Shown here: positions 5,176 to 55,125 of the stretch, piece after piece
Position numbering within the stretch: the first letter of the stretch is position 1
How the letters are laid out: each line of letters starts with the position of its first letter
NCBI GenBank assembly: GCA_001281695.1
Contig: LJIE01000001.1
Span: 998,107-1,062,106, forward strand
DNA length: 64,000 nucleotides
Direction of reading: 5' to 3'
DNA from: a bacterium 336/3
GTDB taxonomy: Bacteria > Bacteroidota > Bacteroidia > Cytophagales > Thermonemataceae
Translations under genes and position numbers: made by a program
The notes under the pieces: model-generated
Databases searched by the model: none
What the model was told of the DNA's origin: nothing
Seen by the model: the letters and a program-made list of their open reading frames with translations, nothing else

Positions 5176-5253
5176 AGGCAAGTAGCTCAGTTGGAAGAGT
5201 ACTCACCCAATTGTGGTAAGAGGTCGTAGGTTCAAATCCTGCCTTGTCTTCCA
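5176..5253 (+). tRNA. tRNA-like element 1 of the array (unit 1, type A); anticodon loop unusual
   Basis: It folds as a cloverleaf. The acceptor 5176-5182 pairs with 5243-5249 (7 of 7, one G-U). The D stem is GCTC/GAGT. The T arm is GTAGG, loop TTCAAAT, CCTGC. An encoded CCA lies at 5251-5253. The anticodon arm is abnormal: the best pairing is a 6-bp stem 5202-5207/5215-5220 with one C-A mismatch and loop CAATTGT. This places A at position 33 instead of the near-universal U and reads anticodon AUU. A bacterial tRNA with A33 and anticodon AUU would be odd, so I give no amino acid. Its last base is also the first base of element 2. Confidence 0.6.
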
Positions 5254-5317
5254 GAGATATAGTTTAACGGAAAAACACAAGCATGCGAAGCTTGAGGTTC
5301 AACTCCTTATATCTCTA
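5253..5317 (+). tRNA. tRNA-like element 2 (unit 1, type B), anticodon GCG, shortened T region
   Basis: The acceptor 5253-5259 pairs perfectly with 5310-5316. The D stem is GTTT/AAAC with loop AACGGAA. The anticodon arm is perfect, CAAGC/GCTTG, with loop ATGCGAA and anticodon GCG (Arg CGC). The variable loop is missing: the T stem (TGAGG/CCTTA, loop TTCAACT) shares two bases with the anticodon stem. Compared with element 6, a 6-nt block is absent exactly between two TTGAG direct repeats, which looks like a slippage deletion. Total length is only 65 nt and no CCA is encoded. It may be a decayed gene or an unusual small tRNA. Confidence 0.5.
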
Positions 5318-5334
5318 TGATATTTTATAATTTT

Positions 5335-5410
5335 GGACAAGTAGCTCAGATGGAAGAGCACTCGCCTGTCACGCTAGAGGTCATAGGTTCGAGTCCTATC
5401 TTGTCCGCCA
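5335..5410 (+). tRNA. tRNA-Asp(GUC), element 3 (unit 2, type A)
   Basis: This is the most canonical member of its type. The acceptor GGACAAG/CTTGTCC is perfect, the discriminator is G and CCA is encoded at 5408-5410. The D arm is GCTC/GAGC, the T arm ATAGG/CCTAT with loop TTCGAGT. The anticodon loop CTGTCAC has U33, anticodon GUC and C38; with G73 and the G2-C71 pair these match known aspartate identity elements. The anticodon stem CTCGC/GCTAG has a C-U mismatch at its middle pair, a defect at the same place as the mismatch in element 1. Probably a working or recently working tRNA-Asp. Confidence 0.8.
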
Positions 5411-5411
5411 G

Positions 5412-5482
5412 AGAGATATAGTTTAATGGAAAAACATAAGCGTGCCACGTTTAAAATTGAGGTTCGATTCCTTGTGTCTCTA
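5412..5482 (+). tRNA. tRNA-Gly(GCC), element 4 (unit 2, type B)
   Basis: It starts two bases after the CCA of tRNA-Asp. The acceptor 5412-5418 pairs with 5475-5481 (one U-G). The D arm is GTTT/AAAC with loop AATGGAA, a short loop typical of bacterial tRNA-Gly. The anticodon stem TAAGC/GTTTA has loop GTGCCAC with U33 and anticodon GCC. The variable loop has 4 nt and the T arm TGAGG/CCTTG has two wobble pairs. No CCA is encoded, unlike its Asp neighbour. The body is shared with elements 2 and 6, making this the likely parent of the type B series. Confidence 0.75.
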
Positions 5483-5495
5483 TTGTTTTAAAACT

Positions 5496-5568
5496 AGGCA
5501 AGTAGCTCAATTGGAAGAGCACCTACTCAACACGTAGGGGGTTGTAGGTTCAAATCCTGCCTTGTCTT
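5496..5568 (+). tRNA. tRNA-like element 5 (unit 3, type A), anticodon-loop reading AAC
   Basis: The acceptor 5496-5502 pairs with 5561-5567 and is identical to element 1. The D stem is GCTC/GAGC, the anticodon stem CCTAC/GTAGG is perfect, and the T arm is identical to element 1. The loop is TCAACAC, so position 33 is C rather than U and the anticodon reads AAC (Val GUU), with an A34 that bacteria normally use only in tRNA-Arg(ACG). After the discriminator the sequence is CAC, not CCA. The fold is good but the decoding loop is non-standard, so the amino-acid identity is left open. Confidence 0.6.
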
Positions 5569-5572
5569 CACG

Positions 5573-5643
5573 GAAGATGTAGCTTAAAGGAAAAGCACAA
5601 GTTTGCTAAGCTTGAGATTGAGGTTCGATTCCTCACTTTTTCC
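5573..5643 (+). tRNA. tRNA-like element 6 (unit 3, type B), anticodon GCU in a Gly-like body
   Basis: The acceptor 5573-5579 pairs with 5636-5642 with one U-U mismatch and one wobble; an extra G5572-C5643 pair is possible. The D stem GCTT/AAGC has loop AAAGGAA, the anticodon stem CAAGT/GCTTG has loop TTGCTAA, and the T arm TGAGG/CCTCA is perfect. The anticodon GCU would be serine (AGC/AGU), but bacterial tRNA-Ser has a long variable arm and this one has only 4 nt (AGAT). If charged at all, it may be charged according to its Gly-like body or not as serine. Confidence 0.6.
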
Positions 5644-52277: not shown

Positions 52278-52301
52278 TTACAGACGCTTAGAAGCCTGTA
52301 A
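52278..52301 (-). promoter_or_regulatory. leader hairpin, possible attenuator
   Basis: On the minus strand TTACAG pairs with CTGTAA and an inner CTT with AAG; 10 nt later comes TATTTTTTG. It lies between the poly-Cys frame and the transporter start. The end of the leader frame (TTAAGC) is complementary to bases inside this hairpin, so alternative pairings are conceivable. Confidence 0.35.
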
Positions 52302-52333: not shown

Positions 52334-52360
52334 TTAACAGCAACAACAGAGCAAAGCCAT
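52334..52360 (-). CDS. poly-cysteine leader peptide frame (8 residues)
   Basis: A minimal reading frame in the leader between the SAM riboswitch and the transporter encodes Met-Ala-Leu-Leu-Cys-Cys-Cys-Cys and stops with TAA. Four consecutive Cys codons (three TGT and one TGC) are very unlikely by chance in this AT-rich DNA. Poly-Cys leader peptides act as cysteine-responsive attenuators in mycobacteria. Here the frame lies 83 nt after the riboswitch and ~100 nt before the gene. The Cys codons can also pair with an upstream ACAACA in a hairpin, so structure alone might explain the sequence. Confidence 0.45.
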   Translation of the reverse strand: MALLCCCC

Positions 52361-52442
52361 GAAGATTGTTGTTTCCAAATTATATTTGGTTATGTAAGAA
52401 AATGTGGCTGAAAAAAATAAGTTCTTTTGCATGTTTGTATAA

Positions 52443-52543
52443 GTTTTATATTTCCTAAATAGTTTAGGCAGGAATTAGCACCTTGCTTAAGCAGGTTGCC
52501 AGCACTTCTTAGAGCCTGTTCTCTTCGTGCTTCTTTATAAAAC
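52443..52543 (-). promoter_or_regulatory. SAM riboswitch (S-box, SAM-I type)
   Basis: On the minus strand the conserved core is present: P2 AGCAC...GTGCT, GGCAACC (plus 52494-52500), a P3 hairpin around GCTTAAGC, and GGTGCTAATTCC (plus 52471-52482), the diagnostic J3/4 sequence. P4 is CCTAAA-CTA-TTTAGG. P1 pairs GTTTTATA (plus 52536-52543) with TATAAAAC (plus 52443-52450), 8 bp. It should repress the downstream NhaC-type transporter when SAM binds. A strong terminator in the expression platform is not obvious; translation or a weak attenuator may be involved. Confidence 0.92.
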
Positions 52544-52657
52544 AATTACAATAATCAACTAAGAGAGAATCTTAGATTTGAAGAGGTGTAATTGAATGAT
52601 GTTGCAAAGCTATATTGAAAAAACGAATAAGCCAAATTTTATTTGGTTTTATTTTTT

Positions 52658-52706: not shown

Positions 52707-53936
52707 ATGAACACAACACTTAATTTAAGCTATCAGGAGTTAGAGAAAATCCCTGATAGCGTACTTGAAAAATTTTATTTGGAAAGTTTAATAATAGGCG
52801 ATGAATTTGATATCAAAGATGATTTTGGACATCCTCAAGAATATTCTGATGGAGACTGGAAATTTTTAAATAAACTCAAAAAACTACCAAGTGATCTAAA
52901 TCAACTTAAAAATCTCAAAAATTTAGATTTGAGAGGTAATAGACTCAAAAAAGCTGTACTTACAGATTTTCCTAAACTTGAACACATCAATTTAGAAAGA
53001 AATGAGTTGGAGACGATTAAACTACAAGACTTACCACTATTAAAATCTGTTAATTTATCTCATAATCAGTTTGTTAAAATAAATATTGGAGGTTTGCCAA
53101 ATTTAGAGCATCTAAAACTCTATAATTGTAAACTTGAAAAGGCTCAAATTCAGAAAATGTCGAATCTTGTTGAGCTTAATTTAAGAGAAAATAGATTGAA
53201 TAGTATAAGTCTAAAAGAGTTGCCTGCACTTAAAAAAGTGACATTAACACGTAATCTACTTGAAAAAATTCGACTTTCAGGGTTTGAAAGTTTGGAAATA
53301 CTCAACATTAAAGAAAATAGATTAAAAGAGATATATCTTTCAGATTTACCAAATCTCAAAGAACTTGATATCAGTGATAATAAAGTTGAGGTGTTACATT
53401 TAAAAAACCTGCCATCTCTGACACATCTGTATTGTTACAATTCAAAACTCAAAAAATTAATTCTTGAAGCTTCAGAATTACCCAAACTGACAAACCTAAG
53501 TATTTCTGGAAATATCTTAATAGAACTGAAACTACAAGACTTTTCAGAACTTGCAACGATTTATTGTGAAAATAATTTGGTAAGAAAGGTTAAGTTTCAA
53601 AACTTACCCAAACTCACAAGACTATACTTCAAGAATAACCACTTAACTAAATTTGACTGGTTAGAAAATATTCCAGAAATTACGAATCTGAATGTTATGG
53701 GAAATTATATTGAAAATGCAGAAGAACTTGTGAATCTTAAATCTTTAAAGACACTCGATATAGCATCAAATCCTTTAGAAAGCTTAGATTTTATAAAAAA
53801 AATGCCTCAATTAGAGTCTTTGTATATTACAAGTTCTGCATGGAAGACCACTCTTATTCCTGAGAAATTTTTGGGTAAATATCCTTATGAAAATAGTTTA
53901 GAGAAAATAAAAAAATACTTTTCGAGCCATGAGTAA
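52707..53936 (+). CDS. cytoplasmic leucine-rich-repeat protein, first of a tandem pair
   Basis: The 409-residue protein consists almost wholly of about fourteen 21-residue LRRs of the form L-x2-L-x-L-x2-N-x-L-x2-I-x-L-x2-L-P-x (for example LEHINLERNELETIKLQDLP), with a leading region (residues 1-~65) and a cap that departs from the repeat at the end. There is no signal peptide or membrane helix. Such proteins are protein-protein interaction scaffolds. The next LRR gene overlaps by 8 bp (ATGAGTAA), so the two are coupled. Function unknown. Confidence 0.85.
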   Translation: MNTTLNLSYQELEKIPDSVLEKFYLESLIIGDEFDIKDDFGHPQEYSDGDWKFLNKLKKLPSDLNQLKNLKNLDLRGNRLKKAVLTDFPKLEHINLERNELETIKLQDLPLLKSVNLSHNQFVKINIGGLPNLEHLKLYNCKLEKAQIQKMSNLVELNLRENRLNSISLKELPALKKVTLTRNLLEKIRLSGFESLEILNIKENRLKEIYLSDLPNLKELDISDNKVEVLHLKNLPSLTHLYCYNSKLKKLILEASELPKLTNLSISGNILIELKLQDFSELATIYCENNLVRKVKFQNLPKLTRLYFKNNHLTKFDWLENIPEITNLNVMGNYIENAEELVNLKSLKTLDIASNPLESLDFIKKMPQLESLYITSSAWKTTLIPEKFLGKYPYENSLEKIKKYFSSHE

Positions 53937-55125
53937 TACTTTTGAATCTATTTTAAAGGAAAACTGGGAAAATAAAGATGAGTTTTTATCTATTGAAAAT
54001 GATGAAAACTTAACAGAATTACCAGTTCCTTTTTCTAAATATCAGCATTTAAAAAGTCTTAAAATTCATAAAACCAATCTTAAGAAAATTGAACTCTCAA
54101 AATTCTCCAAACTCAGAAAAGTTAAATTAGTAAGCAATCAGATTGAGCAGATAAAAATAGAAAAACTGCCAAACTTGGCAGTTTTAGACCTTTCTGGTAA
54201 TAAAATTAAAAACATTGAAATTGCCAATTTACCTAATCTGCTTGAATTAAATTTAAGTTATAATGGTTTAGAAAGAGTAGAACTTAAAAATTTACCTTCA
54301 CTCAAAACTATTACACTCAATTTCAATCAAATTAATGATATTTCTATAAAAAATCTATCCAGTTTATACTATTTAAGTATTGAAAATAACCCATTAGAAA
54401 ATATAGAACTTGAAAACTTGCCTAAATTATGGTATTTTTCATGTAAAAAACATTTACTCAAAGAATTAAAACTTTCAGGATTTCCAAATCTAGAAAGAAT
54501 AGATATTTCTGCTGGTAATTTAGAAAGCCTCGAATTAAGCAATATGCCTTACTTGGATATTATATGGGCAAATGAAAATAAGCTCACACAAATAAATCTT
54601 GCAAATCTTAAAAATTTACAGTACCTCAATCTAAATAAAAACTTGATTTCTCAAATACAATTCAACAATCTCCCCAAGCTCAAAGAATTAAAGTTAGAGT
54701 ATAATCAGCTTAAACAGCTAAATGTAGAAAAATTAGAAGGCTTAGAAATCCTTTCGATAGGATATAATCAACTTCAAAAACTTTATGCAAATGGTTTACA
54801 ATATTTAGAAACAATTTTAGCTTCATGTAATAAATTTAAGGAGATTCTGATAAAAGACTTACCACGTTGTAAATACATCAATTTAGCCTATAATATACTG
54901 ATAAATCCACAATTTGAGGGCTGTCCCTGTTTAAGTAGTTTGTGTTTGGGTAATAACGAAATAAAAACATTGGACTTTATCTGGCGATTGGAATCGTTGG
55001 TTTATTTAGAACTTGGAGGTAATGCTGATATCCTCTTGCCAAAAGATGTGGTTTGGAATAAAAACTGGCAAAGAAATTGTGCCAAAGAAGCTAAAGAATA
55101 TATATCCCAAACAAAATGGAAATAA
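53929..55125 (+). CDS. leucine-rich-repeat protein, second of a tandem pair
   Basis: The 398-residue protein also consists of about fourteen 21-residue LRRs (for example LAVLDLSGNKIKNIEIANLPN), with a short N-terminal cap (SNTFESILKENWENKDEF) and a C-terminal KEYISQTKWK. It is clearly a diverged paralogue of the upstream protein, produced by gene duplication. Both lack export signals. Its stop codon TAA overlaps the ATG of the next gene by one base (TAATG), so three genes are translated as one unit. Confidence 0.85.
   Translation: MSNTFESILKENWENKDEFLSIENDENLTELPVPFSKYQHLKSLKIHKTNLKKIELSKFSKLRKVKLVSNQIEQIKIEKLPNLAVLDLSGNKIKNIEIANLPNLLELNLSYNGLERVELKNLPSLKTITLNFNQINDISIKNLSSLYYLSIENNPLENIELENLPKLWYFSCKKHLLKELKLSGFPNLERIDISAGNLESLELSNMPYLDIIWANENKLTQINLANLKNLQYLNLNKNLISQIQFNNLPKLKELKLEYNQLKQLNVEKLEGLEILSIGYNQLQKLYANGLQYLETILASCNKFKEILIKDLPRCKYINLAYNILINPQFEGCPCLSSLCLGNNEIKTLDFIWRLESLVYLELGGNADILLPKDVVWNKNWQRNCAKEAKEYISQTKWK

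Follow-up and report, generated by a model that had tools for sequence, protein, structure and literature searches.

The window, by which we mean the whole 64,000-nucleotide stretch of bacterium 336/3 DNA that was analysed, carries on its minus strand a gene for an NhaC-type transporter, in whose leader a SAM-I (S-box) aptamer is followed by a short upstream open reading frame (uORF) ending in cysteine codons (Table 1). SAM-I is a textbook riboswitch, and the copy in the window is a full-length aptamer scoring above the gathering threshold of the RF00162 covariance model (81.1 vs 44.4 bits). In the predicted fold of positions 52543-52425 (z -2.10), its P1 helix has 8 bp, GUUUUAUA/UAUAAAAC. A sequence-only reading of the locus had placed a poly-Cys frame, MALLCCCC followed by a stop, between the S-box and the NhaC-type gene, and this frame is present at 52360-52334 of the minus strand (ATG GCT TTG CTC TGT TGT TGC TGT TAA). 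Its length had been misjudged, however: the open frame has 32 codons rather than 8, extending upstream to an ATG at 52432, and MALLCCCC is the tail of the product MQKNLFFSATFSYITKYNLETTIFMALLCCCC*. Since homologous leaders begin their frames beside P1, the ATG of MALLCCCC was discarded as the main start; an internal start at this codon may exist besides the P1-proximal one. The transporter scored 77 bits against the NhaC equivalog model (TIGR00931, cut-off 370), far under the cut-off, and belongs to the Na_H_antiporter family; the 'metT' label given to it earlier is not established. It is 41% identical to the gene behind another S-box and poly-Cys uORF (L079), so the pairing of gene and leader seen in the window recurs.

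Table 1. Features of the window (positions counted from its first nucleotide).
Feature	Positions	Strand	Basis
Row of six tRNA genes	5176..5643	+	Rfam
Na_H_antiporter-family (NhaC-type) transporter gene, 434 aa	50929..52233	-	Pfam PF03553, 119 bits
8-bp hairpin UUACAGGC...GUCUGUAA, 3' of the uORF	52278..52301	-	-8.8 kcal/mol
Cys-tract uORF, 32 codons, MQKNLFFSATFSYITKYNLETTIFMALLCCCC	52334..52432	-	Start 10 nt past the last base of P1; homologous leaders
Cys control codons TGT TGT TGC TGT, adjoining the TAA stop	52337..52348	-	Sequence
uORF body, candidate rut-like stretch	52349..52429	-	Composition: C 17, G 7
SAM-I (S-box) riboswitch aptamer	52443..52543	-	Rfam RF00162, 81.1 bits, E 1.6e-17, model 1-108
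Candidate promoter, TTTG (52636-52633) and TAnnTTTG (52612-52605)	52605..52636	-	By eye, from what we take to be the Bacteroidota consensus
Two neighbouring genes, divergent from the riboswitch leader	52707..55125	+	Products leucine-rich-repeat-like by eye

The 4.7-Mb genome has six S-boxes, and behind three of them, 9-10 nt on, lies a 27-32-codon ORF whose product ends in CCCC or CCCCC. The genes behind these three are the window transporter, metY (L005) and cysH (L006). The metY product scored 679 bits against the OAH/OAS sulfhydrylase model TIGR01326 (cut-off 495), and the cysH product 265 bits against its family model (cut-off 154). The remaining three S-boxes are without a poly-Cys ORF; they include those of metH and of a gene that is metB/C-like by best hit; the products of these two genes, a fragment in the case of metH, scored under the cut-offs of their models.

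Conservation of the arrangement was analysed in 135 S-box leaders from 8 genomes of the family and 119 of the class, collected with Cys codons as no criterion; the own genome enters once. For the class, filters were stricter and the genomes searched had a completeness of 90% or more, and two of the 135 leaders (L282 and L283) lie below the Rfam cut-off. In all 20 metY leaders a short ORF starts between -1 and +15 nt from P1 (median 9); a start at -1 is found in L208. Cys runs of CCC or longer were present in the uORFs of 16 of the 20 metY leaders but in none of the 83 metH leaders (Fisher 2e-15, a guide rather than a probability since the species are related); the metY, metH, metB/C and cysH labels in these counts are short motifs, family models having been applied to four own-genome proteins. 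Among the metH leaders, 17 of 83 have any ORF of 12-90 codons starting -3 to +21 from P1, and none of these ORFs has a Cys tract. No CCC uORF was found in the ten metB/C-like leaders or in two leaders of a second, metY-like type, while one of two cysH leaders has one near P1, as do 3 of 18 leaders of other genes (the window, L246 and L262); the uORF of L246 is seemingly initiated at GTG, 9 nt past P1. Some metY leaders vary the theme: L235 has an interrupted tract, CCMCICCPCC, at the end of its uORF, L186 has two Cys only (CC), and L195 and L213 have an ORF at +9 with no Cys tract (in L195, SCC followed by a stop occurs in a different frame). Loss of the frame in relatives with just a hairpin left at the site, the outcome that the sequence-only reading had set as refuting its proposal, was not what the leaders of relatives revealed: Cys codons and the positions of start and stop are kept, and the rest of the peptide varies.

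Two further leaders of the set have a different layout. In the other cysH leader (L258) a hairpin that looks terminator-like by eye follows the aptamer, and a separate Cys-rich ORF, MKKTTTFPSKTTVANAFKFAAACCCCQKFAACCCKC, containing CCCC and CCC, lies 112 nt past the S-box, so that SAM element and ORF are serial and not fused. L202, in which a hairpin and U-tract, also terminator-like by eye, follow the S-box and an ORF, MKKPDEQKLKISTVPNCKTIRMCMELCCSS, lies 132 nt past it, is perhaps another serial arrangement. At the level of genomes, 86 of the 119 from the class contain an S-box and, by hand count, 10 of the 119 have at least one CCC-bearing S-box leader (11 including L235); most of the class genomes are without the S-box and Cys-uORF arrangement.

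Beyond the class, public genome contigs (one genome per species, 84,980 species) were scanned with a pattern in which four TGY codons come 91-151 nt after the core of the S-box; neither a start nor a stop codon was demanded. At least 118 stretches matched, 80 of which became loci. Among the matches listed, an ATG frame of 14-47 codons runs into the Cys tract in 77 of the 80 loci, and all 77 belong, going by the genera in their record titles, to Bacteroidota: Cytophagales, Mucilaginibacter, Pontibacter, Rufibacter, Hymenobacter, Saprospiraceae, Chitinophagales, Psychroflexus, a Bernardetiaceae MAG and others; from such a list, absence elsewhere does not firmly follow. The three listed matches that lack a uORF, one each from Lentisphaeria, Flavobacteriaceae and Myxococcales, are plausibly due to chance. 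Two genomes contribute two listed loci each (L050 with L063, L078 with L094). By motif, the genes behind the 77 uORFs, again among the matches listed, are 50 metY, 5 cysH, 2 metY-like and 20 others, with a sulfite/nitrite reductase (Pfam) being one of the 20. Pfam assignments for ten proteins, that of the window being one, included sulfite/nitrite reductase, TonB receptors, OsmC, Na_H_antiporter-family transporters, RimK-like ATP-grasp, pyridine nucleotide-disulphide oxidoreductase and M14 carboxypeptidase; the RimK-like gene lies behind L068. The frames of L068, L077 and L084, all from Hymenobacter, were taken from an internal ATG, and perhaps have a GTG start as in L246. The genes served include members of the pathway of Cys itself, namely metY (OAH/OAS sulfhydrylase/cysteine synthase family), cysH and sulfite/nitrite reductase. 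The architecture, its conservation and its gene association are directly established, and we regard a conserved Cys uORF behind S-boxes as virtually certain.

A chance frame, or a simple (TGY)n repeat, is a rival reading, and (TGY)4 is indeed common in the genome when no stop is demanded, with 73 matches. When CCCC followed by TRR is considered, however, only eight matches are found in the 4.7 Mb, and three of them are the S-box uORFs; four lie in another frame, inside longer ORFs or antisense to them, and the last (L290) reads TGG and has no stop. The division between metY and metH leaders is likewise at odds with chance, which conservation already contradicts, and an origin of this kind is scarcely credible.

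The uORFs were analysed further as coding sequences in a set of 97, made up of the 77 chosen by pattern among the matches listed, together with 20 Cys-bearing uORFs of the unselected leaders; 96 are distinct, those of L045 and L051 being identical. The Cys residues crowd at the end of the frame, with 559 of 586 falling within the final 10 residues, the last Cys adjoining the stop in 70 of the 97 uORFs and lying no more than four residues from it in all 97. Both Cys codons are used (TGT 378, TGC 208), as are all three stop codons, TAA, TAG and TGA, and the longest run in a uORF has between 2 and 9 Cys, with no fixed spacing. This coding signature, in which codons for the operon's own amino acid cluster in a short ORF, is directly observed and is that of a leader peptide. 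The body of the peptide is less easily classified: among the matches listed, bodies look unrelated across genera by eye, and dN/dS over 11 disjoint pairs is about 0.44, single pairs scattering widely from 8 synonymous and 1 non-synonymous changes to 0 and 3. Such a value suggests some constraint on the body beyond what pure Cys sensing would need. It is the kind of value expected if the Cys-rich peptide were itself active, in metal binding or as a substrate, and its codons were no sensor, and a copper-linked uORF has been reported (PMC9426467, in the part of that paper available). A functional peptide would, on the other hand, hardly account for Cys residues massed at the stop in runs of variable length and spacing, for bodies without visible kinship between genera, or for sulfur assimilation being the main target, and we consider it very improbable. 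The Cys tract appears instead to behave as a codon counter, the body being under some added constraint, and sensing of Cys-tRNA by ribosome stalling is, judged from these codon patterns, highly likely.

The position of the uORF start points to a role for the aptamer in its translation. Because the start lies some 9-10 nt past P1 and the 3' strand of P1 occupies the ribosome-binding position, a P1 closed by SAM should block initiation; the start codon of the uORF would then replace the usual expression platform of the S-box. At high SAM the aptamer would fold, P1 would close and initiation on the uORF would be prevented, while at low SAM ribosomes would enter the uORF and reach its terminal Cys codons. 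With Cys-tRNA scarce they would pause at the Cys tract, covering the uORF and its stop, and with Cys-tRNA ample they would depart. On the geometry of the leaders, SAM gating of the uORF start is quite probable, and the two steps together, gating by SAM and stalling for Cys-tRNA, are likely. The core of the sequence-only reading, a leader that senses SAM by its aptamer and Cys by ribosome stalling, is in this way upheld by the retention of Cys codons, start and stop in relatives; its frame length and its proposed switch hairpin are not. Sulfur genes in many Bacteroidota probably read SAM and Cys through one RNA leader. Such a division of labour would fit gene logic, since metY and cysH supply the sulfur of homocysteine and cysteine and would have to respond to both signals, whereas metH merely methylates homocysteine and could do with the SAM switch alone.

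How the uORF acts on the gene behind it is a separate matter, on which structure predictions and composition bear. A strong intrinsic terminator between aptamer and gene was predicted in 4 of 20 metY leaders, compared with 47 of 83 metH and 9 of 10 metB/C leaders (shuffled sequences reached the terminator energy in 4 of 339 cases). Two of the four metY terminators lie inside the uORF; L040 and L278 have a terminator-like hairpin after it. In the window, the hairpin at 52301-52278 has z -4.06 (36-nt stretch selected around the hairpin), no U-tract directly 3' of it, and a spacer (about 100-107 nt) that as a whole is not above shuffles in structure (z -0.88). We therefore rejected an intrinsic terminator as the general output of Cys-uORF leaders, given 4 of 20 for metY against 47 of 83 for metH; the scarcity of intrinsic terminators in these leaders is itself a direct observation.

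The sequence-only reading had suggested that a hairpin complementary to the end of the frame could be the switch. The window hairpin does lie 3' of the stop, but the Cys codons take no part in it, and across 55 loci (of 77 listed; distances of 80-260 nt) pairing between the Cys tract and the region past the stop is no better than in shuffles (mean z -0.20). Nor was there a pairing signal in the same 55 loci between the Cys tract and the gene start (mean z 0.15), between the Cys tract and the uORF body, or between the uORF start and the post-stop region. Mutually exclusive hairpins of the trp type, involving the control codons, find no support in the results for the post-stop region and the gene start. 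A broader form of the idea keeps the SAM-gated Cys uORF and has ribosomes choose between alternative hairpins and an intrinsic terminator, in the style of trp or ilv operons. Consistent with it, the 75 nt 3' of the stop show more structure than shuffles do (mean z -1.70, n=66, of 77 listed loci within distance limits), some leaders (L040 and L278) carry terminator-like hairpins there, and a 5-bp stem 3' of the stop has been retained across 20 Mucilaginibacter leaders, every one of its pairs occurring in at least 19 of 20. That alignment comprised 20 of 21 leaders, the unalignable L129 being excluded, and covariation in the stem is weak, with a double change in only one of five pairs. Weak covariation, the lack of preferential pairing by the Cys tract, and a strong hairpin with U-tract in just 4 of 20 metY leaders, twice within the uORF, make alternative hairpins an improbable output. 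A second Mucilaginibacter hairpin, lying further 3' at about columns 200-225 (GGATA/TATCC or CCGGT/ACCGG), looks compensatory by eye and stands outside the count of pairs.

It is also conceivable that the same SAM-gated Cys uORF controls translation or stability of the main ORF, by coupling, re-initiation or protection of the mRNA, as described for mycobacterial poly-Cys leaders in the part of PMC9031893 available. The absence of an intrinsic terminator from 16 of 20 metY leaders would agree with such an output. The distance between the end of the uORF and the next long ORF with an ATG start, however, has a median of 132 nt (range 44 to 695, five below 80; 76 loci among the matches listed), mostly too far for simple coupling, and at 55 loci the Cys tract showed no preference for pairing with the gene start; we judge this output unlikely. 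Both of these alternatives depart from the explanation we prefer, in which Rho provides the output, in the output step alone.

A Rho-dependent terminator is usually described as unstructured RNA, rich in C and poor in G, with a pause hairpin behind it. Bodies of the uORFs have a C/G ratio of 1.84, and C exceeds G in all 74 bodies longer than 20 nt among the matches listed; the other 3 of the 77, those of L068, L077 and L084, are 18 nt long and were left out of this count. The window body follows the same pattern, and in L221 C is not above G. Over 9-90 nt past the aptamer, C/G is 1.80 in metY leaders, with C above G in 19 of 20, against 0.97 and 31 of 83 in metH leaders, while 76 ordinary upstream regions from the same loci gave 1.06, with C above G in half (94 of the 97 bodies entered this comparison). 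The main genes, too, lean to C over their first 90 nt (C/G 1.37, C above G in 82% of 72), and uORF bodies exceed them in this (paired p 8e-4, n=69); the lean of the post-uORF spacer is not different from that of the main-gene starts (p 0.18). Distance and length limits reduced these sets, among the matches listed, to 72 of 77 for the post-uORF comparison and 69 of 77 for the paired test. In structure, bodies do not exceed shuffles (mean z -0.06, n=66), and neither does the window uORF without its stop (z 0.61). The leaders thus contain a C-rich, G-poor, unstructured stretch, which would be exposed if untranslated, with a structured stretch behind it; the composition is directly observed. A C-rich unstructured body also suits a well-translated leader and is no proof of Rho.

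In the mechanism we propose, the uORF body would serve as the loading stretch for Rho, whose gene the genome encodes (653 bits), with the structured stretch following. As the uORF overlies this rut-like stretch, its translation is expected to protect it. When the uORF is untranslated (high SAM), or when ribosomes leave it quickly (high Cys), Rho would terminate transcription before the gene; when ribosomes stall and queue on it (low SAM and low Cys), they would shield it and transcription would continue. Composition, post-stop structure and the few terminators point to Rho as the output, for which we put the chances as about even. The reading as a whole is more tentative, falling somewhat short of an even chance: a Bacteroidota class of SAM-I leaders in which a Cys-sensing uORF, also serving as a rut site, has put its start codon in the place of the terminator, so that the RNA would answer, with Rho as actuator, to the conjunction of low SAM and low Cys-tRNA, the phylum's counterpart of the S-box and T-box of Bacillota. 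If true, codon sensing stacked on ligand sensing would form a natural two-input gate and would suggest why the S-box platforms of metY and cysH differ from that of metH. How riboswitch, uORF and Rho are linked could then be tested beyond the mycobacteria, and annotation that ends at the aptamer can overlook a second sensor.

Among the papers listed by a search of titles and the openings of abstracts, mostly from outside the subscription literature, none describes a leader peptide with a Cys tract behind a SAM riboswitch. The comparisons that follow refer to the portions of the cited papers available. Poly-Cys leader ORFs of mycobacterial cys operons, which the sequence-only reading had named as a precedent (PMC9031893; PMC1262725), were predicted in 2005, with Rho already suggested (PMC1262725), and Canestrari 2020 is the experimental work on them (cited in PMC9031893 and PMC13236596). 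As in the leaders described here, a short uORF upstream of sulfur genes has a Cys run close to its stop, and a conserved terminator hairpin is absent (PMC1262725); unlike them, the mycobacterial leaders are from Actinobacteria, have a leaderless start and, in the available text, come with no mention of a riboswitch (PMC1262725; PMC9031893). The uORFC-8-2 motif before cysS in Rhodobacterales is likewise a Cys-codon uORF attenuator, but it has two Cys codons, usually at positions 14-15, and a U-run consistent with an intrinsic terminator, and the available text mentions no riboswitch (PMC8632094).

Riboswitches acting through a small uORF are known from Mycobacterium tuberculosis. The pe20 Mbox controls the translation of a uORF between aptamer and gene with Rho-dependent termination, a pyrimidine-rich region being discussed as a possible rut; it differs in its ligand, Mg2+ rather than SAM, in anti-Shine-Dalgarno switching by a Shine-Dalgarno sequence, and in its phylum, Actinomycetota, and amino-acid control codons are not mentioned in the text available (PMC12810186). 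In the ppe2 B12 riboswitch, too, translation of a uORF (uPPE2) is controlled and the downstream gene depends on it, but uORF and gene overlap, the output is primarily termination-reinitiation and the available text mentions no control codons (PMC11260477). Among SAM-responsive systems, the SAM-II metA riboswitch of Sinorhizobium meliloti also acts on a distant translation start, though it is of another class and, in the text available, no Cys-tract leader is mentioned (PMC9373788). The ubiG operon of Clostridium acetobutylicum comes closest in its inputs, SAM and charged tRNA-Cys both acting through RNA on one sulfur operon; there, however, Cys is read by a T-box and not by a translated ORF, and the S-box lies on an antisense transcript (PMC2940859). 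The separate parts therefore have precedents, in poly-Cys leaders, in riboswitch-controlled uORFs with and without Rho, and in the T-box and S-box pair. As far as the available literature goes, what is new is the fusion of a SAM-I aptamer to a Cys-codon uORF in near-fixed geometry and, within the same limit, the way this fusion is concentrated on metY and a small number of other genes and distributed within one phylum.
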